DNA of 64,000 nucleotides from Flammulina velutipes (taxonomy: Eukaryota > Basidiomycota > Agaricomycetes > Agaricales > Physalacriaceae): assembly GCA_011800155.1 (NCBI GenBank), contig CM022369.1:372001-436000 (forward strand), written 5' to 3'. Positions 4,205-32,214 of the stretch are shown here, in pieces (positions within the stretch are counted from its first letter, which is position 1; every line of letters begins with the position of its first letter). Both the position numbers and the translations under genes were made by a program. The notes beneath the pieces are model-generated. The model saw only the letters and a program-made list of their open reading frames with translations, did not search any database and had not been told where the DNA came from.

Positions 4205-4459
4205 ATGGACGACTTTTCCTCCCAGCCTATGGCTAGCCCCAACATCTCTGACTCCATGTACTTGAGCGACGAAGACGTCGACATGGATATGACCTACCAT
4301 GGACAGGCTTCCCAGATCTCCGAATTCCGTCCTTCTCGACTTCCGACTCCAAACACGGCGGATTTGTTCAACGAGGACCCGACAAGGATGTGGCTGCCTA
4401 GCCAGCACTCTTCATCTTCGATACATTCTCCATCACCTTCTCTGATGCCCGAAACACAT
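4205..4459 (+). pseudogene. 5' part of a gene split by the Plavaka insertion
   Basis: An ATG at 4205 opens an 85-codon frame rich in Ser, Pro and acidic residues ('MDDFSSQPMASPN' start). It runs into the left inverted repeat of the element at 4460. Joining 4459 to 13830 keeps the same frame without a stop and leads into the segment at 13830-16123, so the two parts are one gene. It starts 120 bp after the Tnp2 stop on the same strand. It may therefore be the second gene of the same CACTA-type element, which is an inference. It has no recognised domain. Confidence 0.65.
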
Positions 4460-4476
4460 CAGGAAACAGCTATGGA
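4457..4476 (+). repeat. Left terminal inverted repeat of the Plavaka element
   Basis: CATCAGGAAACAGCTATGGA here is the exact reverse complement of 13811-13830. The outer CAT/ATG includes the AT target duplication, so the true repeat probably begins at C4460. Confidence 0.85.
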
Positions 4477-4735
4477 TGTTAAGTCACTGTAAGTTACATT
4501 TTATTTTACATGTAACTTAAGCACCTAGAGTTAACTCAAAGCCATCAAGTTAACTCAAGTTAGTGCAGGATGCCTGCATATCTCTCCTCAACCTATGTTG
4601 TACTTAGATATCTTTAGTTGCACAGAGTGTCTTTTAGCTTCTTCATATAGTACAAATATCTCCAGGTGTGTTAAGTAGAAGAACACTTTACAAATATCTT
4701 AATCCAACTGAAATTGCATCAAGGTAACGTAAAGA
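4477..4735 (+). repeat. Left subterminal repeat region
   Basis: AT-rich, non-coding, with repeated AGTTAACT, TAACTTA and AAGTTA words (for example around 4488-4495, 4510-4516, 4528-4536 and 4546-4560). In CACTA-type elements such arrays bind the element's own proteins. Here that role is inferred only from position and repetition. Confidence 0.6.
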
Positions 4736-7700
4736 CTACACTTTATAGATCGTCTTGTAAGTATATAGACTCAGCCAGTTATTGACTAGAAAGTGCTCTA
4801 CAGAATCTAGCACATCCCCTCTAGTATCCCAGACCTCGTTGTTTACATACTTACTGTAATGTGGGAATAACATGCAGCTTTGACGAATATTGGATAAAGG
4901 TATAATTGACCATGCACGTGTGCCGTCTGAAAGATACGCCTTGGAGACGGCAGGCATATTATGAGTACGCTGAGCACGGGTAGAAAGAGTGACAGGCTTG
5001 AACCATTCGACATAGGCCAAAGGCTCCTTTGGCCAATGAGTCGGAGTCGCATACGTTGTTCCCGAAAGCTTAATGCCAGAAGGCACCTTGAAGATGACAC
5101 GAATTCTTGCAATGCGAGTTCCTTTGAGAACATAAGTAGACGTCAGAAAGGAATAGAAGACATACCATCTAGTCCCGTGCTCTCCGCGTCCTCCCCAGTC
5201 ATGACAACCACAGTATCAAATCGGGATCCCTCCAAGGGTGATGCTTTTACTAGATCGTGCTCCTCTATACCGTCATCCAGACCTTCGAGAGTAAATTTGA
5301 ATGAGTAATAGACATCTATGCGGGAAAAGGGAAGTGAGTCATAATGAATCGGAGACTTGAGCTTTTCCTTTCCCAGAGCGTTCAGGTAATGCCGGAGCTG
5401 CGATGAAAAAGAAGGAACCCGGTGCTGCTTCTCTATCAGGGAGAGCAGCTTGTGAGGTGCTGTTGGCGCGTGGGGAAGAAGAATAGATTGCGAGCCCAAC
5501 TTCAAAAGCTTCTTGGAAGAGGAAGTGTCCTTTGGATGTGAGCCTAAGGAAAATCGATCAGAAAAGATCAGATTTAGACGTTCGCGTGTGATTTACCTTG
5601 CTTTGGGGGGACCGCTGGTGCCTTGGGTAGAAGAATAGGTTGCGAACCCAGCTTCAAAGGCTTCTCGGAAGAGGAAGCGTCCACTGAACGCGAGCCTAAG
5701 GAAAATAACTCAAAAAAAGGCAGATTTGGCTGTTAAGATGTGCTTTACCTGGCTTTGAGGGTTTCCGTTGAAGATAACGTTCAAAAGAACGTACGTTCTC
5801 CTGCCTGAGGATCCACTTCGTCATCTGAGGGAACTCGTCTCGTTTATTAGAGGCGCGCCAGCCTTTTTTAGCGAAGTCGATGTGAAGACGTTCAAACATC
5901 TCCGTGTTGAAGTTATTGGTCGTGCCCAGAAAACGAATGGAGTCGACATAGTGCGAAAGAGAATGGAACTTTGGAATGTCGAGATTTTCCCGGACCCCCA
6001 CGGTAATGAAGTACTGCGCGTTCTCTTGCCACGTCTTCAATACGTCGTCCATATACCCTAGAGTGACGTCGTCGTGGGTGGAATACTGGGCAAGATAAAT
6101 GAAATCGAGCAGAGCACGACAGGCCGTCAATCCCTGGTCAGACATCCGTGTCCCGACCAAACAGCCTAGCAAAATTTTGGCCATGTTTTTCCTTTCTGAA
6201 CCGCTGACTTGGGAGAGGGCGCTGATGCCGTTCTTGAAGGCCTTGAGTCCTAAGGCACGGGGAAGGTTGCGGATGCGCCGATCAAGCTCTTCTTTGCTGA
6301 GGAGAGTCTGGCACCAGGCAATTAGGTGCTTGAGAACACCTTGATAAAGTTGATGGAGAACGTCGGGGGTGATGCAAAGATGGATATCCGAGAAGGGCAG
6401 GTCCTCCCAGAATGGTCGAGAAACATATCCCGAGACCTCCTCAGCCATGCAGTGTTTAAAATATTTGTCGAAGGAACCCGTCGTCATCTCGGCGTTCTGC
6501 ATGACTGATAGCGTGTGGGCCTGAGTGCGGGGAGGAAATGAGGAGGAAGAGTGGAGATCTTCAGCGGAGACCTGGCATTTCGGGCAGGTTCCATATTTTG
6601 CGCAGCATACCATGCACTGCTCCGGGTAATCAGCGACGTAGCTGGCCAGGATAGGATGAACCATCCGGACTGCCCCATCCCCGCTGACCATCTCTACACC
6701 GTCGTTGCCAGCTGCCACGAGTGGCTCCATGAGATGTTTCATGGCAGCGTGGAAGAGTCGCTGGTGTCGCGCAGATGCCTCCGTCTTTGACAATCGGCCC
6801 TTGTAGATTTTGTCGGCGGGAAGATAGGCGATAAGGATAGCAGCCTGCTCTGAGGGCTTACGACGTAGGTGGTTCGGTATATTTCCCAGCGTAAGGTAGA
6901 CAGGATAGGCTTGGCGACTGCCGGAAAATTGGGTGAGTTGTGTCTTGTCGGTGGAGATGATGACGGGCGCGATACAATCCTCGCCATCTATTCGTTTCTG
7001 TTGAGCTGTGAGAAGAAGCCTTCAGGATCCCAAAGGACACAAACCTGGATATAATTCCACCATTCGCCAGTCCACATCTCTCCATAAACGCGACTCTTCT
7101 TTTGAGCATTGGAAAACACTCTTCGAGGGCGGTAAACGAGCTGTTCCGTGAGCGAAGGATCACCCCATAAGCTTTGAATGGACTGCAGGATGTCACGATG
7201 TCGGAGTATGAACTTGTCGTCAGGTCGGTCTGGAAAGCTGAATCGTTTTGTACGCCATTGGCCGGCCCGGCTTGGAAGAGCGTCCAGCTTGCTATGTAAA
7301 GAACGAGTATTAGAGAATGAGAGCCCTAGTCTCTCCTTGACCTAAAAGCTGTCAGTGAGAAGGCGTCACCTTTTTGCAGGACTTACCCCAGGAATGTTGA
7401 GGAAGCGGTCAAAAGAGTTGTGGCCAATTCCGTCCTCGACCATCCACTTGGCCACCTTCCAATCTAATTCCGAAGCGAACGGAAAGTACTCTGGGTCCTC
7501 GCTGGCCTCTTGCTCCGCACTACCCATATGGACGTCTCCGTCCGAGTCCTGAGAGGAAGCAAACATCTTTGCCCAACGCTTATGCAGGCTGGGATCCATC
7601 CTCAGCACTTTCCCTGCCGTCGGGTGTTCCACCTCTACTCTCTCGTCGTCTTCATCATCCAGGATGCGTCGCTTGGCTCCAAGCATCTTGTCCATGCGAA

Positions 7701-8118
7701 GGCGTTCCGCAGACGTCGACGGCCCCGGTCCTGCTTCTCCCAGCTTTGGAAAACGAGGAATCTCCTCAAACTGGAAGAGTTCTCCTTCCTCCAACAACTC
7801 CCGGAAGATTTCGCCAGGATCTTCCTCATCGTCTTCCTCCTCCTCCTCCTCCCCCTCCCCTTCGGGCTCTTCATCATCTTCGTTGTCTGGATTAGAGTCG
7901 TCGGAAGCTATTCGAGTGTTAATTGGGACATCCATATCGTCCGCCTCTCCGGATTCAACGATCGCAGTGGAAGGGGTTCCTTCGGGTAACTTTCCAGCTG
8001 CGAGATACCAGGAACAGGATTTGGCCTGGCGCAAATGACTCTTCATTCCCTTTAACGAGGTAAAAGTCCGCGTACAGTCGGGGTTTTGGCAGGGAAAGAC
8101 GACCTGGGGCTGTGACAT
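4736..8118 (-). CDS. Plavaka transposase, intact spliced gene
   Basis: Six exons join in phase: 8118-7387, 7341-7045, 6997-5749, 5695-5597, 5543-5166 and 5121-4736, giving 1046 residues and no internal stop. The start chosen is the ATG just before a C2H2-like finger ('PCQNPDCTRTFTSLKGMKSH'). Further Plavaka landmarks are an acidic linker, 'KLDALPSRAGQW', 'GEMWTGEWW' and 'IISTDKTQLTQF' (first catalytic Asp of the RNase H-fold core). They are followed by 'YPVYLTLGNIPNHLRRKPS', 'CMVCCAKYGTCPKC', 'TPDVLHQLYQGVLKH' (second Asp) and 'FNTEMFERLHIDFAK' (probable acidic third residue). The C-terminus has 'SIIPLSNIRQSCMLFP'. Exons 4 and 5 start with a 152-bp tandem duplication. All key segments are present, so the enzyme is probably functional. 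Confidence 0.88.
5459..5762 (-). repeat. 152-bp tandem duplication inside the transposase gene
   Basis: The splice acceptor, exon start and donor of exon 4 (acceptor at 5697-5696, donor at 5596-5595's counterpart 5748-5747) recur exactly 152 bp further on at exon 5. Both exons begin with Gly-Ser and contain 'LKLGSQ.ILLP' and 'AP'. The copies have diverged at many positions, so the duplication is not recent. The outer limits are approximate. Confidence 0.75.
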
Positions 8119-8248
8119 GATGAAGACGGGGATTTGATTGCTCATGGAGTAGGTACTTGAGGTATTAAATAGCTGCAGCGGAGTCAATAGATGAATGGAG
8201 CGAATAGAAGGATACGCACTGACTTAGGAACAACAATAGCCCTGCCCG

Positions 8249-8790
8249 CTAAGCATCAAGCATTGCGATAGCGAGGGCAACGGCACACTGCTTTGCTTGC
8301 GGCAGTATCCTGGGCGACTGTGGGTGTAACTTCTTGAGGAGATGTTCGCCTGCTGGAATGAAAAGACCGTTTGCGAGACCTGTCGACCAGCCGAAGGAAA
8401 GGGATTTGCTATCAGTTGCCCTTGTATCTCCCGTAGGACTAGAAATCATTGTCAACGGCGTCGCATCCACTATGAATGGAAACGCACCTGAGCCCTTCCC
8501 GTTAACCTCACAAGCAACGATAGCAACAAATGCCTAATACTCCGGTCACCGGCTTGAATTAACACTGCAATATCCACGTTAGCGGTGTTGAAGTCGGGTT
8601 GTAGGAGGGGAACGCACCTCTATCCCAACGTTGAGCGTTCCAAAATAGCTCCAAATGCCTGCTGTATTTTTCGTTGTCCAAGGGTGAACTAGAGCAAGTG
8701 TTGAACAAGATAAACGAACACAAGATCGCTCGGACGTACCTTGGACGTGAACGTTGCCAGTCCTGGCTCCATCACGTGTCTTGCATGACA
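8249..8790 (-). pseudogene. Degenerate gene-like remnant, unrecognised
   Basis: On the minus strand there are exon-like blocks separated by GT...AG stretches: a start-like ATG at about 8773, donors such as GTACGT and GTGCGT, and acceptors CTAG/GCAG. A protein-like tail reads 'SLSFGWSTGLANGLFIPAG'. I could not splice the blocks into one long frame. The 'FGWSTGLANG' segment recalls the membrane segment before the first NPA box of aquaglyceroporins, but no NPA motif is visible, so this is only a guess. It sits between the transposase promoter and the dioxygenase gene, as decayed cargo or captured host DNA would. Confidence 0.3.
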
Positions 8791-9196
8791 GCCCTTCTAC
8801 ACGCGTTGAAGAGGTGACAGTGGGCGGTCAGAGGTCGGTGAAACGATGATTGGGCTAATTTGACGCGACATGGAGGAAAGCAAACAAGAGATCAATCAAT
8901 TACTTCGGGCCGCTTGAAGATGATCATCTTCAACGTTCATTATCCCAGCCGACAATGGTATGTCCTGCTGCTTTACATGAGTTATGTCGTTGACCATTGT
9001 TCTGTAGCCTCACTTGGACAAAGACATACTCTCATTGTTTACCTCCGGCTGTATATATACTCAAGTCTTCGAGCCAGCAATGTCTCCTCCCTCGCACGAT
9101 CCGACATCTCCAATTGTGAGTCCATTCCTCCAATCCTATCGCAAGGGTGCTTCTTGAAACGCTGGACATCTGCATGCCTACATCCAGCGTCTGTCA

Positions 9197-9286
9197 GTAC
9201 ACGGTCCGACATTGGACATTGTGGAACTCGTTGTTTGTAGTGCTTCTGGGTTAGTACGTGGTCCGACGTTGGACATCGCGGAACCC
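9197..9286 (+). repeat. Two imperfect 57-bp direct repeats upstream of the TET/JBP gene
   Basis: GTACACGGTCCGACATTGGA and GTACGTGGTCCGACGTTGGA start at 9197 and 9254, and each is followed by CAT.G.GGAAC. A shorter related word (GATCCGACATC) lies at about 9100. The pair lies 120-210 bp before the start codon, so it could be a regulatory array; no binding factor is known to me. Confidence 0.55.
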
Positions 9287-9406
9287 CAGATGCCAGCGTG
9301 TTAGCTCTCCCAAGCTGTTTCGGATGGCAGCTTTTGCGACGGGTCGTCAACCTGGCATGTATCTTTTTCTACAGGAGTTCATGCTGACGAAGTTACAGAA
9401 CAAAAG

Positions 9407-11198
9407 ATGGATAATCCCGCATACGCTTCAACAATCCAGCTCCCTTTCAACATCACGCCTCTCATTCTCCTTGCGAAATCCCGCTATGACGCAAGTATGT
9501 CCCAGGAAGAAGAGGAGGTAGAGGTCGACCCGTTCACTTCACTCCGACGCCAACTCCATGCCCCTCTCAATGAACTCTCTGATCTATCCGATGATTCAGA
9601 CCAGGACGATGCGGGAAAGAATGGCACAGGACTAAACCCCGCCCAGCACCAGAAGAGGAAGAATCCCGAGCAGTCCCTCTCTCCCTTGCAACGGCAATTA
9701 CATGCTCCTCTTGAGGAACTCTCCGACCTTTCCGACATTTCAGACTTCGAGGATCCGAGGAAAACACCCAAGGGAAGAAGCCCTGCTGGTCGCAAGACAC
9801 GTCCCCTGCGGTTTCTGCCCAGGATACCTCCATCACGCAAAGCCGTTATCAAGGACGTCTCTTGCAGAGCCCCTGTCCTTAGCGAGAACATCAGCCCCAA
9901 TACAGCCCTCCCTCCAAACACATCAGGAGAAGGACCACTTCCCATCTCTATCCCTCAGAAGAGGAAAAAACCGCGACGGCGCAAGACAGGCGCCCAAGTT
10001 CAGGAACGGAACAAGCGGAAACGACTGAGCAGACAGGAGGCTCGCGTAGCTTTTCAAGAGGCGAACGGAGGCTTGAAAGCTGTCTGCTTCAAGCGCCTTG
10101 CCCAAGCTCAGCCTCGAATGCTCCTCGACGTCAATGTTCTGTCGCTGCCTGCTGCGAAGGGAGCTTGGGTTGGAAAACACCGGAGGTTCGAGGCGATCTC
10201 TCGGTCTTTGGAAGACGTCCGTTCGGCCAACTTGAAGATCATCCAATGGGACGGGAAGACTACTCACCCAGTGCTGGACCAGGACTCCCGCATGTTCATT
10301 TTGATGGACGGGACAGCTCGGGGAGATGAATGGGAGCAGCTCAATGCCCGAATGGCGCAGAGGGTCGACGCTGCACGGGCCCGCTGCCGTTTCGTCAAAA
10401 AGAAGAATACAGAGATCAGAGGGGTATTTGCCGCCCTAGCAGAGGGTGTTTCGCACGGGGGAGGAACCACGGTATGCGCTCTTTCCAAATTATTCCCAAT
10501 CATCGTCCCAACTCTGAGAACGTCTAGGGCCCGGGAAACATAGCTATCTCTGAGAAGAACCGGCAGGTCTTGCAGGACTTGTTTCAAGATCCCGACTTTA
10601 TACGGGACGCTGGCCATGCCAATCGTACGTCGTTTACTCTGTCTTATTTCAAGGCTGACAAATTTTTAAAGGTGTCTTCCAACTGTACAATCCAGCTCTT
10701 CACCGCCTCTATTGCGACGTTCATGAGAGTTTGGACATGCAATTCGAGGAGGAAGAACTCCATTGGCCCTTTCCCAACAGCCCGTTTGCCGCTACTACGG
10801 TCAACTTTGGCCCTCAAACAGCAACCTACGACCACGTCGACGCGCATAACTTGCCCTTTGGATGGTGCCGTATCAAGGCGTTGGGAAACTACGACTACAA
10901 GCGAGGAGGCCATTTGGTTCTTTGGGATCTGGGGATCGCCATCGAATTCCCTCCAGGCGCTTCTATTTTCATTCCGTCTGCAATTCTCGTACATTCAAAC
11001 GTGGCCATTCAGCAAGGCGAAACCAGGTTTTCTGTTACATCCTATTCCGCAGGCGGACTCTTTCGCTGGGTCTACAATGGAGGCCAGACTGATAAAGATT
11101 TTCAGGAGGAACTCACAGAGGAAGAATGGGAGGAGGAGCTGAAGAAGAGGGACCGACGTTGGCGAGAATGCATCCGATTCTTCCCCGTCTGGAGTTAA
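9407..11198 (+). CDS. TET/JBP-family 2-oxoglutarate/Fe(II) dioxygenase (transposon cargo)
   Basis: Exons 9407-10471, 10528-10624 and 10672-11198 give 562 residues. The N-terminal third is acidic and low-complexity, with a repeated 'LHAPL.ELSDLSD' motif (residues ~48 and ~105). A basic stretch around residues 185-215 is a likely nuclear localisation signal. The C-terminal half has the fungal TET/JBP core: 'GPGNIAISEKNR', 'TVNFGPQTATYDHVDAHN' (HxD, iron ligands), 'GGHLVLWDLGIAIEFPPG' and 'IPSAILVHSN' (distal His ligand). It ends with 'GETRFSVTSYSAGGLFRW', where the Arg should bind 2-oxoglutarate. All catalytic residues are present, so oxidation of 5-methylcytosine or a related base in nuclear DNA is likely. 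A later Met at 9497 is an alternative start. It lies between the transposase and the DUF6532-like gene. Confidence 0.88.
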
Positions 11199-11345
11199 TG
11201 CAGTTTAAGCCCGCATTGTATTATTGAAACACGTTGCTGTTTTGCTTGACTGAAACCCTCCGCTTAGAACATGTTACGTAGAAGGTGAGCGCAAGGCGGG
11301 CATCGAGGCTCGCTTAAGAGTGACTGATTGTGCCGCCCGTCACGA

Positions 11346-11352
11346 TATAAAT
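11346..11352 (+). promoter_or_regulatory. TATA box of the DUF6532-like gene
   Basis: TATAAAT lies 86 bp before the ATG at 11438, in the short gap after the TET/JBP stop. CT-rich sequence follows up to the start codon, a common fungal promoter layout. Confidence 0.5.
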
Positions 11353-11437
11353 GTAAGCACCCTCTCTCTCTCGCACCATCACCTCTTTCTTACCCTCGAC
11401 CTCTTGCTAGCTCCCTTTCGCACGTCTCTCTTTCGCA

Positions 11438-13209
11438 ATGGCCCGCACCAAGAACAACTCCAAGGCTTCTCCTCGCAAGAACTCCACTGGCAAGAAGGCC
11501 ACCGTCAAGGCATCCGCTTTGGCCGCCGACGTGGCTGGACGCCTCAAGCTCTTGAAGAAGCAGAAGGCAGCAGAGCTTGCTGCCAAGGAGGAGGGCAAGT
11601 CTCTCTCTGCTTTTGACCGTATGCTCAGCTCTAACGACTTCTTAGCTATTCGAAAGAAGGCTGAGGCGATTTTGGCAGCTCAAGAAGGTAGCTCTGAGGA
11701 AGAGGATGAGGACTCGGGAGCTCCTCACGCTCTGGATACGTTCTTTGGGCCTTCTATTCCTTCACCGTCAGCCAAATCCGACGGTGAGGAGGATGAGGAC
11801 GACAGAGCTGCCTCTTCTGGAAACGAGGCAGAGGAAGGGTCTGAGGATGAGATTTTCGACGTGGTATGTACCAGAGTCTCTTTATCTTGTGCTGCGCTCA
11901 CAGAGCACATCCAGTCTGGCACTTATCCTGGGCAGACAAGCCCTGCACCAGTGACCCCCACCAAGAGGAAGGAGGCTCCTCTCTTGCTCAGCCCCGGCAC
12001 CGACTCCCCTCTCCTCAAGAAGCGTCGTACTACTGCTAATCTTCCCCGCCACTCTGTCGCTAAGACTTTCAAGAAGTACAAAGTGACGAGAGATGAGTTT
12101 ACTCCCCGGACCACTCGTTTCGCAGAGGCCTCCAAGAAGGAGCTTCGTCGCCGTGTCGCTCTGGTGGATGCCTACCCCGGTAACAAGGAGATGTTCATTA
12201 AGGAGACAATTCAAGCCACCGCGGAGGACCATGAGAAGCCAGAGTTCAAGGATGCTTTGGAACGTCTTCTAGCCAACCCGGAGATGCAGCAACGGTTTGG
12301 GCTCTACGTACGTCCAGCTCTTCTACCTCTGTGCTGTCACTTACCCCCCCATGCAGGTTAGTTATGCCCGGAACGGCGTACTCCACGGGATGTACAAGAA
12401 GGCTCACTCATTCACCGCCACCATGGGCCTCCCGGGACATCGCAAGGGAAAGGAGATTCAGCTCTTTGTCCAATGGCTGCTTCAAAAGGATACTTTCAAG
12501 TACGGAGGTCTAGATTCTGAGGCAAGTCTATTGTCCTCTCTATTATCTCTTCTCTCTACTGATAGCTTCTAGGCCATGACCGTCGACCTCAAGAAGCCCT
12601 GGGGTGCTACCTTCTTCGACGCCATTCCTCGGGCTCAACTTTTCACGGGACGTGGCACCGCTGATACACTGGTGACACAGCAACTTGTCATCAACCAAAC
12701 CCTACCAGGAGAGTTGATGGCGTTGAGCGCTACTGCCGTACGTCAATTTTCTTTCTTTCTTCTTTCTCTATATCCTTTGACTCATACTTGTTCAGATGGA
12801 ACACGCTATCAAGGAATGGGCTGAGGGTTCTCAGAAATCTCTAGATTTCACGGATGCCCTTGCCTCTCGGTCCGTACTTTCTTTGCACACTGTGGCCTAT
12901 CTAATGTTCTTTCTAGCTATGTCTATCATCTCAAATCGTGGCAGTTCTTTGAGGACAAGTGCCCTACTTATGCCCGACGTCTTCGCAATGACCTGTTTCA
13001 TCAAATTCTGTACGTTTCTTGTTCCTTTACTTCTTCTCTCTAACTGATTGTCTATCAGCTGTCATTCCAACAAGACATTCCTCATTGAGGCTACTGGCAT
13101 CATCGAGATGGATGGAGTAGATCTTAATGCTTTGGAGGAATCTGCAATGACTGCAGACCGCCTTGACGCTGCTCAGGCAGATTCGTCTCTTCCTCTTACC
13201 TATCCTTAG
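11438..13209 (+). CDS. DUF6532-like protein (transposon cargo)
   Basis: Seven exons join in phase: 11438-11863, 11915-12307, 12357-12521, 12573-12737, 12796-12869, 12917-13009 and 13059-13209, giving 488 residues. The first acceptor could instead be 11935. The N-terminus is Lys/Ser/Ala-rich, then comes an acidic Ser/Glu stretch and basic 'SPLLKKRRTT', suggesting a nuclear protein. From residue ~240 the sequence resembles DUF6532, a domain common in mushroom genomes: 'FIKETIQATAEDHEKPEFK', 'IQLFVQWLLQKDTFKYGG', 'LPGELMALSATAMEHAIKEW'. Intron 3 uses a GC donor (GCAAGT). The biochemical role of DUF6532 is unknown. Its place in an intact element suggests a job in transposition or silencing escape, which is inference. 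Confidence 0.7.
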
Positions 13210-13810
13210 ATATCTTTAATCATCTATGAGCCATAGCATTCAACTGCTTCATTCATTCATTATACTAGCTATATGTCGTCGTCACTAGCCTGAAATTAAT
13301 CAATATGCTTTTTTTATATTCTTTGAACTTTAAACTAAGTTGACCTCATAGGGTTATCAGCTGTCTTATAACTCAGTGTATTCTAGAGCTTCTTTAAGTT
13401 GTTTAATAGACATCTTTATAATAGTTCCTAACTAACTTCAATGCACCTCCCGTCAAATCTACATTCATGACACTGTTCAAAGCTAACTCTTGTTCAACCA
13501 CAAGTTGACATAGACTAATGAAGAATATAACACTAACAAAGGCTAACTTCGAGCTCTCTACAGGCTAACCTCAAATTACCTTGACACATTATTAATTGTA
13601 ACTTTGCATTGAAGTAATCTTGAAGTTAACAAAGGATGTAGTGTATATTCCAAATGCTTTATTACAACCTATGACACTCTGAAGTTACCTGAAGTTAGAA
13701 AATACTAACTTAGTATTTTCTACAATTATAACCATAGCCCTTGGCAACTTTACTGACTATTGTCTTCGGGGGTGTAAAGATAACTTCAGTCACATAGAGA
13801 TAACTTAGTC
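13210..13810 (+). repeat. Right subterminal repeat region
   Basis: About 600 bp of AT-rich non-coding DNA with many copies of GCTAACTT, GAAGTTA, TAACTTC and AAGTTAAC in both orientations, densest between 13430 and 13810. The word content mirrors the left end (4477-4735), as expected for the two ends of one element. Confidence 0.65.
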
Positions 13811-13830
13811 TCCATAGCTGTTTCCTGATG
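13811..13830 (-). repeat. Right terminal inverted repeat of the Plavaka element
   Basis: TCCATAGCTGTTTCCTGATG is an exact 20-base inverted match to 4457-4476. The last G of the element is probably 13827, followed by the AT duplication. Confidence 0.85.
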
Positions 13831-16123
13831 CAGGGTATGGTCGACGTTCAGGCAGCTACATGGTACACCACAGGAATGCAAGTGTCCCATTGGGCCTAGG
13901 CGCGATGCAGAGAGTGGCATCACCGTTAGCAGGAGTGCCTACATCGTACGCATTGCAGAGTCAGCTAACGGCGGCGCTCGAGAAAATTGAAGAGCTCAAA
14001 CTTCTCCTTCGGGACAAGTCAGTGGAGAACAGTGCACTACAGTGAGTGTGCTTACCTGTTGCGATAAATCCGCTAAATTCTGGGCAGTGACGCCTACAAT
14101 AAGCTTCTTGAGGCTGTTCGATCTGGCATGTCAGGACACTCACAGGATATCGACGGGAAGCCAGCTCCAGTACAGTCAAGAAGGGTCCATACTTTCCAGC
14201 CACCAGAGCTTGCTCTCGTCAAGTTCTGGACTCGCGAAGATTACAAGAAAAGACCACGCCACGGCCAAGGTACAGGACAAGGAGCAAATGAGCACGCCAT
14301 GTCCTTTATTACGGGCAAGGATGGTGTCCCAATCACAGAGCTCTATGCAAAGGATATACGAAGTGGAATACGGCTCCATTGGCAAGACTGGATCATTAGC
14401 GGAAAGCCAGTCCCCGCGTCATGGATGCAAGTGGGCGCTGTTGCGATGGGCAAGTACTATGACTTTGCAGCAGAAACCTATCCTCCCGTGGGCCTGTGTG
14501 CAAATAATTGGAAGGCGCACAAGATTGGGTTGACGTACTATCCCGCTTGGATCCAAGCGAACGCTGCAAAGATCAAGACAGCTGCGGAGAAAAGTCGACA
14601 AAGCGAGATCGAGCAAGGTGCATTGGCGTTGCAGATATCATCAGGTGGTACGGCATTGGACTTGAAGCGACCAAGGAGAACAGATGAGAGTGCTAGTACA
14701 CGAAAGCGAGTGAAGAAGGAAGTCAAAGAGGAGAATTCTAAATCGGTATGATATTCCCACCATCGTCTTTCCTCTAATCAAACCATCATAGACACAGTCT
14801 CTTGTTGCCGACAATGCTCCACTTGTACCTCCAATGCCAGATGCCAGCGAAGTCCCGACGCCAAAGGACTGTGAAGTCCCGACAGCTGCCACACCATCTC
14901 CAGATCTGGCGTCGGCTCCAGCCATAGCAGAAACTCTCCCAGTACCAACACTGGCTATGCAAGTAGCAGCTCCAACTCCAACACTTGTGATGACTCCAAC
15001 GTTGCCAACAACGCCAACAACCACAACGCCAATGATCCCAATACCAACGAACCCAACGACGTCGGCACCAACGACCCCAACACCAACGACCCCAACACTA
15101 ACGACCCCAACACCAACGACCCCATTACCAGCTGTACCCGTAACAATCTCGATGCCGACCACCCCAGTCATGAACCAGTCATCTACCATACAGGAGCCAA
15201 CACCGATGCCAACACTGTCACCAATCGTTCCAGCGACGCCTATCCCTGTAGCAGCCCCAATATCTGTCGCTCAAGACTTCGAGGTGACTCCACCAACAGC
15301 GCCATTGGAAGACAATGTACAGATCCCTAATCATCAAGAAGCTACCCAGCCGCTCCCTCTGGCGCCATTCATGCAGGACAAGGGATTTGACGAACCTGGT
15401 AGTGATACTATAGGTGCGCAACACAAACACGCTATATTCTTTTGTCTAACAATATTCTTATCAGTAATAGAGCCTACTCCTCTTACAGAAAACAGCCAGG
15501 CAACATTTGACCTGCCTCACGAAGAAATGGACGATCCATTGACAAATAAATACGCCAAGTTCAGTCAATTTTGGGTCTGTTTCTTTCCTTTTTTATTGTT
15601 GGCGTTATTCTCATCCCTCCACAGAGCAAGAACCCGTTGCTCAATGACAAATCATATGTTAACTCTGCCCCTCTCGACCTGACACTACCGTCGTCGTCTT
15701 CTCAAGGTACACCTCTACGATCATTTTCCGCTCATATATTCACACCGCTATGCAGCTGATTCAGGCGAAAACCCGGAGAAGAAAAAGAAAGCTGTAGCAG
15801 GCAAGATGACAGCAACGAAGAGCACTACTCCGCGGTTCGTTTCTTACCTTTTCGGACTGTACCGCCCTAATCGAGACATTCCCTAGCAATCTTTGTGCAA
15901 TTCAGTGGATCAGCAAAGTGAAAGGCACTCGAGAACAGTTCGCAACGTATTGGAGCAGTCTCTCTGCGGAGGAGATAAAGGTATGTCATTTGATTCTCTA
16001 CTACTCGCAGTATCTCAATTCACTGTCTTTTACCAGACTTGGACAGAGAAATCAAACCAGGCGAAGGCGGCTGGAAAGGAGGCGGCCACAGGAAAGGAAG
16101 CTACGATGGCGGCAGCTAGTTGA
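13830..16123 (+). pseudogene. 3' part of the gene split by the Plavaka insertion
   Basis: Continues the frame left at 4459. Residues then include a leucine-rich coiled-coil segment ('LTAALEKIEELKLLLRDK') and, after an intron (14042-14087), a compact region with 'FWTREDYKKRPRHGQG', 'ELYAKDIRSGIRLHWQDW' and 'YPPVGLCANNWKAHKIG'. Next come basic 'KRVKKEVKEE', a long Thr/Pro-rich repeat (about 15045-15130), further short exons, and a basic tail ending at TGA 16121-16123. I recognise no domain. Without the insertion it would encode roughly 650 residues. Coiled coil and basic patches suggest DNA or protein binding, perhaps a CACTA accessory protein; that is inference. Confidence 0.6.
15060..15125 (+). 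repeat. 15-bp minisatellite encoding Thr-Pro repeats
   Basis: Tandem near-identical CCAACGACCCCAACA units, giving a TTPTP pattern in the split gene. The 15-bp period keeps the frame. Confidence 0.75.
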
Positions 16124-21874: not shown

Positions 21875-22942
21875 AGATGCCAGAGAGTTTCTTCTTTCTT
21901 CCAAATTCTCCCGAAGCTTAGATCCATCGCGTTCTTTGCCACCTGGCGTGTATGGCTCTGCGTGCCACAAAGTTTCAGGCGAATAGCCTATCTACGTGCA
22001 CAGAAATGGTGTCGTTCCGGTCTATGGAACGGATGGCGACTTCCTCTAGGCCTCGGACTCAAGTTCACTCACCAACGCGATCCTTTCATCGAAGTCTCCA
22101 ATATTCGTTTCGTTCGAAAGCATACAACAATACCTGTACCTCTTGTCCTCGATTATCTACCTCCCGTTTCTGATTCGGGCAGTTCCAAGGGCGGTCTCAT
22201 TGTCATGGAATGGATCGAAGGCGAACAGTTATCGACTTGGGTCCTCGACCGTACGACGTGGCCCGACGACTTTCACAAATACTTGGACGTCTTGCAAAAT
22301 CCCGAAGACCATCCGGGGTCCAATTTGAAGCAAACAATGACCATTCTGGATAGCTTTAGACCCACTATCGATGTTTCGGATGCTACACATTTCATGGACG
22401 ATTTGCGAAAAGCCCTTATGGAACTTCGAGCAATCCATTCTCCGGGAGATGGAAGAGTCTGCGGTATCGACGGTGGACCTCTCATATGGTCGCGCTGTCT
22501 GGGGAACCGCGAGATTCTCCCTCCTGTCGAGAGTGTGCCCGCTTTCCATCAAATACTTCTTGATAACGTGGCTTGGAGGACTCGCATGCCTCGTATCATG
22601 GAAATCGCTCGTCCTGTCCTTGACAAACCCCATCGCATCTGTTTCACTCACTCAGACCTCAACGCGAGTAATATCCTAGTCAAAGATGGTCGTCTGGCTG
22701 GCATCGTCGATTGGGAGTTCGCGGGCTGGTATCCCGAATACTGGGAATATACGATGCTCCGAATGCAAAATTTGCATCTTAAACCATTGGAGGCGTTCTG
22801 GGAGGATGTTGGAACGTTCAATGGTGAATATGAGGAAGAAATTGCCCTGGAACGAGCCTTGTGGCATAGTACAGGAGATATGTCCATCGCTCCTGGCGTT
22901 ATACAAGGTGATCCTTTGGATGAACCTATAGAGTCCAATTAG
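21875..22942 (+). CDS. APH-family kinase-like protein, copy 1
   Basis: A long frame ending at TAG 22940-22942 with the APH (aminoglycoside/choline phosphotransferase-like) landmarks: 'RFVRKHTTIPVPLVLDYLPP', 'GLIVMEWIEGEQLSTW', catalytic loop 'CFTHSDLNASNILV' (HxDxxxxN) and metal-binding 'IVDWEFAGWYPEYWEYTM'. It aligns over its whole length with the copies at 28745 and 31174, including N-terminal 'ATWRVWLCVPQSFRR'. No in-frame ATG lies between the upstream TGA (21872-21874) and Met at 22205, so the start must come from an unresolved upstream exon; an acceptor-like TTTTTGAAG ends at 21876. The substrate is unknown. In fungi this family expands greatly and few members act on aminoglycosides. Confidence 0.75.
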   Translation, partial: RCQRVSSFFQILPKLRSIAFFATWRVWLCVPQSFRRIAYLRAQKWCRSGLWNGWRLPLGLGLKFTHQRDPFIEVSNIRFVRKHTTIPVPLVLDYLPPVSDSGSSKGGLIVMEWIEGEQLSTWVLDRTTWPDDFHKYLDVLQNPEDHPGSNLKQTMTILDSFRPTIDVSDATHFMDDLRKALMELRAIHSPGDGRVCGIDGGPLIWSRCLGNREILPPVESVPAFHQILLDNVAWRTRMPRIMEIARPVLDKPHRICFTHSDLNASNILVKDGRLAGIVDWEFAGWYPEYWEYTMLRMQNLHLKPLEAFWEDVGTFNGEYEEEIALERALWHSTGDMSIAPGVIQGDPLDEPIESN

Positions 22943-28744: not shown

Positions 28745-29776
28745 ATGACGACCTTGCTCAGTTCTATTGTCTTTACAATGTGCTGGCGTGTATGGTTGCT
28801 CGTGCCATCCGGAATCAGAAGACGCGCTTATATTCGATTGAAGAACCGATACCAGACAAGACCTTTCGAAGCTACCCGTCTCGCCTTTGGTCTACGCTTC
28901 AAATGGACTTTCTTCGATCCTCGTATTGAGGCAAACAACACGCGCTTCGTACTCGACAACACGACAATCCCAGTGCCTCGTGTACTTGACGTTCTTCCCC
29001 CTGTAAAAACCACAGACTCTCGTGGAATCATTATTATGGAATGGATAGATGGCGAGACGCTGTCGTCCTGGGCTAGCGATCGCACAAAGTGGCCAGAGGA
29101 ATATCAACACCACATCGCTCGTTTAATGGGCGACGACACCATGTCCACCTCTGAACTAGACGATCTCCAAGCTATTCTGAAACATGCTGTTCCAACTGTT
29201 GACGTATCAGATGGTCAAGGTCTTATTGACGATCTGCACAACGCCGTCTCCCAGTTGCGCACCATTCCTCCCCCTTCGTCTTCAACAGTTTCGGGACTCG
29301 ATGGTCAACCATTGATTTGGTCGCGCTGCCTCGGTACCCACCAGTTACTGCAGCCTACCAGCCTGCCAGACTTCCACCGTCTCCTGATCAACCAGGTAGG
29401 ATACCAAGTTCGAATCCCTCATGTCCTACGAGCCGCGGAGCCCGTTCTCCACCGAAAATACCGCATGTGTTTTACGCACTCCGACTTGCACACCGATAAT
29501 ATCCTCGTGAAGGACGGGAAACTCGCCGCAATCATCGATTGGGAGTGTGCCGGCTGGTATCCCGAATATTGGGAGTGTACGATGCTGAACTATCACAGCA
29601 CTTTGAGAAGGACATCCGACGTATTCTGGAAACAAGTTGACCTTTTTAGTGGGGACTACGAGGAGGAGTTATCTCTCGAGAGAATCCTGTGGCAGAGTTC
29701 CGGGGACGGAGCAGTGCGTCCCGGAGATTTACCTGGCAATCCATTGGACCAGCCAATCGATGCCGCAATTCAGTAG
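28745..29776 (+). CDS. APH-family kinase-like protein, copy 2
   Basis: A single 343-residue exon. The N-terminus is hydrophobic and aromatic ('SSIVFTMCWRVWLLVP'), then 'RFVLDNTTIPVPRVLDVLPP', 'GIIIMEWIDGETLSSW', 'QPLIWSRCLG', catalytic 'CFTHSDLHTDNILV', 'IIDWECAGWYPEYWECTM', and a C-terminal 'LPGNPLDQPI'. Catalytic Asp and Asn and the metal-binding Asp are intact. It is closest to copy 3, with which it shares most motif wording, so the pair arose by a fairly recent duplication. The substrate is unknown. Confidence 0.82.
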   Translation: MTTLLSSIVFTMCWRVWLLVPSGIRRRAYIRLKNRYQTRPFEATRLAFGLRFKWTFFDPRIEANNTRFVLDNTTIPVPRVLDVLPPVKTTDSRGIIIMEWIDGETLSSWASDRTKWPEEYQHHIARLMGDDTMSTSELDDLQAILKHAVPTVDVSDGQGLIDDLHNAVSQLRTIPPPSSSTVSGLDGQPLIWSRCLGTHQLLQPTSLPDFHRLLINQVGYQVRIPHVLRAAEPVLHRKYRMCFTHSDLHTDNILVKDGKLAAIIDWECAGWYPEYWECTMLNYHSTLRRTSDVFWKQVDLFSGDYEEELSLERILWQSSGDGAVRPGDLPGNPLDQPIDAAIQ

Positions 29777-30885: not shown

Positions 30886-31173
30886 CGGTCTTAGACACGT
30901 AGCGTACAGTACCAGAATACATACTTACTTGAGCAGATCTTGGTTACTGTCGCAATATGACTACATCCTAGAGATCTACAGACTGTTCGTTCATACATGC
31001 AGATTTGAACGTCCTCGGCATCAATTATCGTGGGAGTTTATGCGTGCTTGACTGGTCACTCTTGACTTCACTAACACGTTCACTCACTGAATCTTTGCCT
31101 TTGCCACGTACGTTCTTGTTGAATTCCTCCATAACACGTGTTGATAAGTCCCTCTGTTAGGATTTCGGGGACG

Positions 31174-32214
31174 ATGAAGCGAGTTTTACTCGGGCTTCGT
31201 TCCTTTGTTTTTAACACCTGCTGGCGTGCATGGCTGTTCATGCCATCCAGAATCAGAAGGCTCGCGTATATTCGAATGAAGAACCGCTACGAGAAGACTC
31301 CGTTTGTTGCCTCTCGTCTCCCCTTCGGTTTACGCTTCAAATGGACCTATTTCGATCCCTGCATCGAAGCAACCAATATGCGCTTCGTTCTCGACAACAC
31401 GACAATCCCTGTGCCCCGTGTGCTAGACGTTATCCCCCCAGACAAGGAAAATACTCTCGGAATCATTCTGATGGAATGGATTGACGGCGAGACATTGTCA
31501 TCCTGGATCGCTCAGCGCACGAAGTGGCCACAGGAATACCATCGCCATATTGCTCGGCTGACAAGTGGCGAACACATGTCGACCTCTGAGCTAGATTCTG
31601 TGCAAGCTATTCTTAAGAATGCTTACCCCGTTGTTGACCTCTCGGACGGGCAAGGTCTTATTGACGGCCTACACGACGCCGTCGCCCAATTGCGTGCAAT
31701 CTCTCCCCCTCCTTCTCCGATAATTTCAGGGCTAGGTGGACAGCCGGTCATTTGGTCTCGTTGCCTTGGTACACTCCAACTGCTACAGCCTGTCAACATC
31801 CCAGATTTCCACCGCATCTTGATAAATCAAGTAGGATACCAAATTCGAATCCCTCATATAATGCGCGCAGCGAAGCCTATACTGAATCGCGAATACCGCA
31901 TATGCTTCACGCATGCCGACCTGCATACTGATAATATCCTCGTAAAGAATGGTAGGCTAGCCGGGATCATAGATTGGGAATGCGCGGGCTGGTATCCAGA
32001 GTATTGGGAGTATACGATGGTGAAGTATCATAGCATCTTGCAGAAGCCGATGGAAGCATTCTGGGAACAGGTCAAACTTTTGAATGGACAGTACGAGAAC
32101 GAGTTGAACTTCGAGAAGATCCTTTGGCAAAGTAGCGGGGACAGAGCTCTACGTCCCGGGGTTATACCTGGTAATCCATTTGACCAAGTTATTGATGATG
32201 TGAATGATCAGTAG
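31174..32214 (+). CDS. APH-family kinase-like protein, copy 3
   Basis: A single 346-residue exon starting 'MKRVLLGLRSFVFNTCWRAW'. It shares all landmarks of copy 2: 'RFVLDNTTIPVPRVLDVIPP', 'GIILMEWIDGETLSSW', 'QPVIWSRCLG', catalytic 'CFTHADLHTDNILV' and 'IIDWECAGWYPEYWEYTM'. The catalytic Asp is kept. The Arg-rich 'PSRIRRLAYIRMKNRYEK' after a hydrophobic start might hold it to a membrane, which is inference. The substrate is unknown. Confidence 0.82.
   Translation: MKRVLLGLRSFVFNTCWRAWLFMPSRIRRLAYIRMKNRYEKTPFVASRLPFGLRFKWTYFDPCIEATNMRFVLDNTTIPVPRVLDVIPPDKENTLGIILMEWIDGETLSSWIAQRTKWPQEYHRHIARLTSGEHMSTSELDSVQAILKNAYPVVDLSDGQGLIDGLHDAVAQLRAISPPPSPIISGLGGQPVIWSRCLGTLQLLQPVNIPDFHRILINQVGYQIRIPHIMRAAKPILNREYRICFTHADLHTDNILVKNGRLAGIIDWECAGWYPEYWEYTMVKYHSILQKPMEAFWEQVKLLNGQYENELNFEKILWQSSGDRALRPGVIPGNPFDQVIDDVNDQ

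Follow-up and report, generated by a model that had tools for sequence, protein, structure and literature searches.

A PlavakaB transposon of Flammulina velutipes carries TET/JBP-like dioxygenase and DUF6532 genes that recur side by side in the same genome

Plant CACTA/EnSpm transposons encode a second protein, TnpA, in addition to the transposase TnpD and have repeats under their ends, and TET/JBP and KDZ were reportedly the matter of a 2014 PNAS paper. The closest described elements belong to PlavakaB, for which section 3.2.2 of a recent work gives CATCA..TGATG ends and a 2-3 bp duplication as defining features, the combination of DDE residues, C(2)C and H(3-4)H being another criterion (Kojima 2025, December; PMC12730594). 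Passages of the same paper describe TET-bearing PlavakaB from Agaricus bisporus and Gymnopus confluens together with the proposal that they escape silencing, report TET transfer between transposons, ascribe activity on 5-methylcytosine (5mC) to TET enzymes and CMD1, and present Asp337 of CcTET as required for 5mC. DUF6532 is not named in its main text, supplements aside, where a “third protein” is mentioned for Harbinger elements only; the domain (PF20149) does appear in passages of a Ganoderma domain comparison that also lists Plavaka (PMC8955403). Here, we address an element at positions 4457-13830 of a 64,000-nucleotide stretch of F. velutipes DNA (the whole stretch is further called the window; C2:372001-436000 of a 38.1-Mb, 23-contig genome), which encloses genes for a Plavaka transposase, a TET/JBP-like dioxygenase and a DUF6532 protein. 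An earlier, sequence-only reading of this stretch took the combination for a possibly undescribed one. For TET-bearing Plavaka with silencing escape this did not stand, as both are in print (passages of PMC12730594); the TET-bearing Plavaka is already known, and the pairing with DUF6532 in the same genome is new, since a link of DUF6532 to Plavaka or TET was not found in print as far as the open literature was searched, closed-access papers and supplements lying outside that scope.

The window segment 4457-13830 is one intact element with the following components.

4457..13830, 9,374 bp, no strand: complete PlavakaB element with inverted repeat and duplicated CA
4457..4476, plus strand: left terminal inverted repeat, 20 bp, perfect match to the right one
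13811..13830, minus strand: right terminal inverted repeat, 20 bp, perfect match to the left one
4455..4456: left CA of the target site duplication
13831..13832: right CA of the target site duplication
4736..8118, minus strand: Plavaka transposase, 6 exons, 1046 aa, PF18759 363 bits
7387-8118, 7045-7341, 5749-6997, 5597-5695, 5166-5543, 4736-5121, minus strand: transposase exons
9407..11198, plus strand: TET/JBP-like 2-oxoglutarate (2OG)-Fe(II) dioxygenase, 3 exons, 562 aa, fold via homologue P0001
9407-10471, 10528-10624, 10672-11198, plus strand: TET-like exons
11438..13209, plus strand: DUF6532 protein, 7 exons, 488 aa, PF20149 79.3 bits (cut-off 24)
11438-11863, 11915-12307, 12357-12521, 12573-12737, 12796-12869, 12917-13009, 13059-13209, plus strand: DUF6532 exons
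4457..4776: left subterminal A+T-rich region, 35% G+C, AAGTTA/TAACTT 4 times (2 of 300 shuffles reach this count)
13191..13830: right subterminal A+T-rich region, 34% G+C, AAGTTA/TAACTT 9 times (shuffle mean 1.1, 0 of 300 reach this count)

The termini read CATCAGG..CCTGATG, and the full arms (4457-4484 and 13803-13830) comprise 28 nt with 89% identity, the outermost 20 nt being identical. An intact Plavaka unit with TET/JBP and DUF6532 genes, all three spliced and open, had been proposed by the sequence-only reading and agrees with the perfect 20-bp ends, the CA duplication, both Pfam scores and the three uninterrupted frames; its inverted repeats are real as well, although the limits it gave (4460..13827, with a 17-bp repeat) missed 3 bp at each outer end. 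Removal of the element with one CA joins the flanks into an open frame of 154 residues across the site, which places the insertion in a coding exon. The exact terminal 17-mer is confined genome-wide to the two ends of this element, so the family is single copy; with up to two mismatches, it is met at 12 places vs 8 for the reversed control. A genome-wide search for the empty site with the joined flanks returned only the self-match. The TET and DUF6532 genes might alternatively belong to a second, nested element, a case raised by the sequence-only reading and ruled out here because no further CATCAGGAAA lies inside and the same gene order recurs in other families. Genome-wide, CATCAGGAAA has 279 occurrences vs 58 for the reversed control; at least 19 facing pairs 1.2-2.4 kb apart, among the matches listed, look like short non-autonomous derivatives.

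Recurrence of the trio was followed by searching for DUF6532 loci with PF20149 and the DUF6532 sequences of the window and C9, for TET loci with the window TET and for Plavaka with PF18759. At least 20 DUF6532, 34 TET-like and 38 Plavaka loci were obtained, which are lower bounds derived from the best-scoring candidates, the Plavaka set including weak matches below cut-off; grouping used all 59 TET matches, 28 of 74 DUF6532 and 38 of 68 Plavaka matches, the others being further exons of the same loci. DUF6532 follows 0.2-1.4 kb downstream of 12 of the 34 TET-like loci, with order and strand the same in every case, and an oppositely oriented Plavaka is found on the TET-upstream side of each of these 12 pairs, at 2-10 kb in eight and 14-28 kb in four. 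The 11 non-self TETs paired with DUF6532 outrank every unpaired one by best match to the window TET. Among the DUF6532 loci, 12 of 20 have TET at no more than 2 kb (0.5% expected) and 14 of 20 within 15 kb of Plavaka vs about 3% of random points, an expectation that overstates the contrast because transposons cluster. A search for the trio elsewhere in the genome, suggested by the sequence-only reading, thus yields two further complete elements, C8:2609078-2622022 and C12:1437644-1447250, each having both ends, a TA duplication and all three genes; the C12 ends are a visual choice among four left and two right candidates, made because this pair shares TA, and the C12 inverted repeat is imperfect. 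The C1 trio at 1250-1260k is enclosed by ends 1248662 and 1260998 (12.3 kb), identified by word match. One end was found for the C9 element and one for C8:956-970k, whose left end with matching target site duplication was not found. The idea of a fixed TET-DUF6532 cargo pair stands as regards recurrence in constant order and fails as regards equality of the two, DUF6532 existing also without detected TET. Thus, the complete elements C3:3124066-3130475 (CA duplication) and C10:1340465-1347203 (TG duplication) carry transposase and DUF6532 with TET not detected, and DUF6532 lies near Plavaka without detected TET, judged by proximity, at C8:849k, C15:51k, C21:126k and C22:10k.

Identity to the window genes was compared over 20 Plavaka loci, each wide-spaced TET being assigned to the nearest Plavaka. 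Transposases 76-77% identical are accompanied by TETs of 55-61% (C6:2835k, C12:1444k, C6:1713k and C21:86k), and in seven other elements the respective values are 61-67% and 45-49%; the correlation between transposase and TET identity (Spearman 0.69, n=11, p 0.02) comes from related, non-independent elements with wide pairs assigned by nearness. Transposases of the DUF6532-only elements C3, C10 and C8:853k share just 41-44% with that of the window. Since DUF6532 also sits in these more distant TET-less elements, it looks older than this TET lineage, i.e., like an older companion, to which TET would be a later addition in the group, judging by sequence comparison. TET may also be lost, as DUF6532 is present and TET undetected in the C15 and C21:120k elements (71% over 199 residues); two C5 elements (70%) adjoin TET, with DUF6532 not detected. 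These C5 Plavaka copies (242242-245826 and 2022916-2026494), with one stop each in the compared exon, adjoin same-strand TET-like genes.

The window family being single copy, selection was assessed on related copies by Nei-Gojobori ratios of non-synonymous to synonymous rates (dN/dS; own script). Between C12 and its C6 copy, 47 synonymous and 16 non-synonymous changes in DUF6532 give dN/dS 0.094, with 0.077 for the transposase; between C9 and C1:1250-1260k, TET gives 0.069 in exon 3 and 0.219 in the last 280 codons of exon 1, and transposase exon 3 gives 0.021 at dS 2.3, near saturation. TET and DUF6532 are under purifying selection in related copies. Identity between C9:953324-956482 and C1:1256760-1259900 rises from 0.66-0.87 (transposase and most of TET) to 0.95-1.00 in DUF6532, a jump suggestive of recombination or gene conversion among families of elements. 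Longer TET-bearing elements have a fourth gene between transposase and TET (C9:957473-959744, C8:2614975-2617095 and C8:956-970k), modelled as 672 and 724 aa in two and incomplete in the third; C8:958k models of TET and of the fourth gene are visibly incomplete. Two pieces of this gene gave no Pfam match when scanned, and its fold model was unusable (predicted local distance difference test 34.7).

The element bears PlavakaB characters, namely the PF18759 domain (cut-off 26.3 bits), CATCA..TGATG ends and a 2-bp duplication with the frame restored on removal. The transposase gene is divergent from the TET-like and DUF6532 genes. Asp, CxxC, His and Glu motifs are conserved in its main exon across seven aligned elements and provide candidates for the catalytic residues. 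An exon-plus-intron unit of 152 nt is tandemly duplicated in this gene (5448-5599 and 5600-5751, 75% identity).

In the TET-like protein, HxD (HVD), the distal His and an Arg, which by analogy would bind 2OG, are conserved in alignment A1 (19 of 23 database relatives plus the window exon, window row included; P0017, P0019, P0020 and P0021 left out), in line with the sequence-only reading; the source fungi of these relatives include Hymenopellis, Cylindrobasidium, Lentinula and Marasmius. The modelled structure of homologue P0001 has TET enzymes and CMD1 as best matches with CcTET on top (14% identity over the structural alignment), and through this homologue the window dioxygenase is predicted to adopt the TET/JBP variant of the 2OG-Fe(II) fold. 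TETs of four related modelled elements show HAD or HVD, and the window protein has HVD and not the HxE of the PE type. Database searches of the PDB with one TET open reading frame (ORF) and with profile A1 gave chance-level matches only. Above-cut-off matches to C5-methylase domains in the host (five, at four loci) allow DNA methylation without proving it.

The DUF6532 gene model includes a GC-AG intron after exon 3, and all six models in alignment A2, from which the low-scoring C3 model is excluded, match PF20149. The window (manual model), C8:957k, C8:2610k and C9 agree in exon lengths of 165, 165, 74 and 93 nt, those of C12 being 168, 165 and 167 nt (167 equals 74 plus 93), and this agreement points to common descent of the DUF6532 genes. 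Automated gene models are approximate; in our own test, exon 3 of the window DUF6532 was shortened (470 vs 488 aa). No database relatives of DUF6532 were returned at E <= 0.001, for which low-complexity words are a possible cause, so rarity does not follow.

With confidence somewhat above even, we regard the element as an autonomous PlavakaB cut-and-paste transposon equipped with a TnpA-like DUF6532 protein and a TET enzyme serving escape from silencing. Plavaka transposase would cut at the CATCAGG..CCTGATG ends, producing the 2-bp duplication. The presence of DUF6532 in elements without detected TET as well favours regarding it as a core companion gene, and by analogy with TnpA its product would most likely bind the repeats under the ends and aid transposition. 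A TET/JBP-fold enzyme was presumably added in one Plavaka branch and may oxidise modified bases on the element, most likely 5mC, which, given the homologue fold and the iron/2OG residues, could allow escape from silencing. G+C content is 34-35% at the termini vs 51% in the interior.

Several observations weigh against this reading. Transposition activity, the TnpA-like role, the 5mC substrate and silencing escape are all what we infer. The zinc-finger-like N-terminus of the transposase (zf-C2H2, 10.7 bits, below cut-off) could bind the repeats in place of DUF6532. The AAGTTA/TAACTT excess (13 in 960 terminal bases vs 5 in 8,414 inner ones) concerns a word chosen from the same sequence as tested, and terminal repeats of C10 are weak (5 at most); by counts only, the commonest terminal words differ in the four other elements, being CATAGG (12 times) in C3, CTCAAG (8) in C12 and AGGTTA (8) in C8:2609k. 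The fold was modelled on a homologue 49% identical to the window TET, not on the window protein itself; PF12851 scores 15.5 bits on the latter (cut-off 34.9), the C12 TET exon has no Pfam match at all, and the genome search with PF12851 returned three other loci, all under cut-off, the window locus not being listed. As the scores stay under cut-off, including 28.2 bits for the C8:958k TET ORF, TET/JBP membership rests on fold and residues. Besides, 22 of the 34 TET-like loci have no DUF6532 within 2 kb, C5:242k and C5:2025k among them adjoining Plavaka in another arrangement, and two of the 20 DUF6532 loci (C5:286k and C8:553k) lie more than 40 kb from any Plavaka. A shared element is less certain in four of the 12 pairs because Plavaka is 14-28 kb from TET there, as in C1:1265389-1291293, which reads as one 25.9-kb element: PlavakaB-type ends at these two positions, found by word match, enclose the complete trio, and the word is absent from the interval between them.

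The notion that TET and DUF6532 are captured passengers dispensable for the element's life cycle appears unlikely to us. The TET-less DUF6532 settings (complete C3 and C10, and those at C15:51k, C21:126k and C22:10k), the 22 TET-like loci lacking DUF6532 and the described TET transfer between transposons (passages of PMC12730594) fit it, but it conflicts with the purifying selection seen for TET and DUF6532 in related copies, with an arrangement identical in order and orientation throughout the 12 pairs and with DUF6532 persisting in Plavaka branches at 41-44% transposase identity. It is likewise doubtful that the dioxygenase acts on another base, e.g., N6-methyladenine (6mA), or on RNA rather than undoing 5mC. 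CcTET, the best structural match, has solved structures with both 6mA and 5mC DNA, and by ungapped count from HxD the position of CcTET Asp337 is not Asp in the window TET and holds Cys, so the substrate may differ; a further point against the preferred reading, this is countered by the top structural matches being TET enzymes and CMD1, 5mC-acting according to passages of PMC12730594, and 5mC as the substrate is inferred from the modelled homologue. A single anti-silencing complex, with DUF6532 guiding TET to the ends of its own element, is quite improbable: Plavaka upstream of all 12 TETs with a DUF6532 neighbour and the differing terminal words are consistent with it, but DUF6532, existing without detected TET in several elements, must have another job.

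The proposed autonomous PlavakaB transposon with a TnpA-like companion and a silencing-escape TET gives DUF6532, covered in the searched literature by one domain comparison, a setting and a testable role. As mutual natural controls, related Plavaka families in which TET was or was not detected also bring the silencing-escape idea within reach of a test in a single genome. One long-shot extension is a self-targeted eraser, with DUF6532 binding the repeats and recruiting TET to the termini of its own element, so that each family would demethylate itself and not its rivals.

Left of the element, ORF 1218-2609 matches Transposase_21/tnp2 (34.8 bits, cut-off 28.6), and the neighbourhood thus includes another transposon; the interrupted gene at 4206-4456/13833-14751 may belong to this older tnp2-type element. 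Three similar-looking ORFs of the same orientation (21962-22942, 28745-29776 and 31138-32214) resemble a small gene family with what we take to be a phosphotransferase-like motif.

As for known systems, the window element has in common with TET-bearing PlavakaB of A. bisporus and G. confluens, as presented in passages of the source, the Plavaka transposase, CATCA..TGATG ends, short duplication and an internal TET/JBP gene, whereas PlavakaB TETs there are of PE type with HxE and the window TET has HxD (PMC12730594). Kyakuja (KDZ) elements with AG-type TET, and CcTET, likewise combine a TET/JBP fold, HxD and a gene riding on a DNA transposon, the transposase being KDZ there and Plavaka here. With plant CACTA/EnSpm, the window element shares a second protein and subterminal repeats, a likeness of layout alone.
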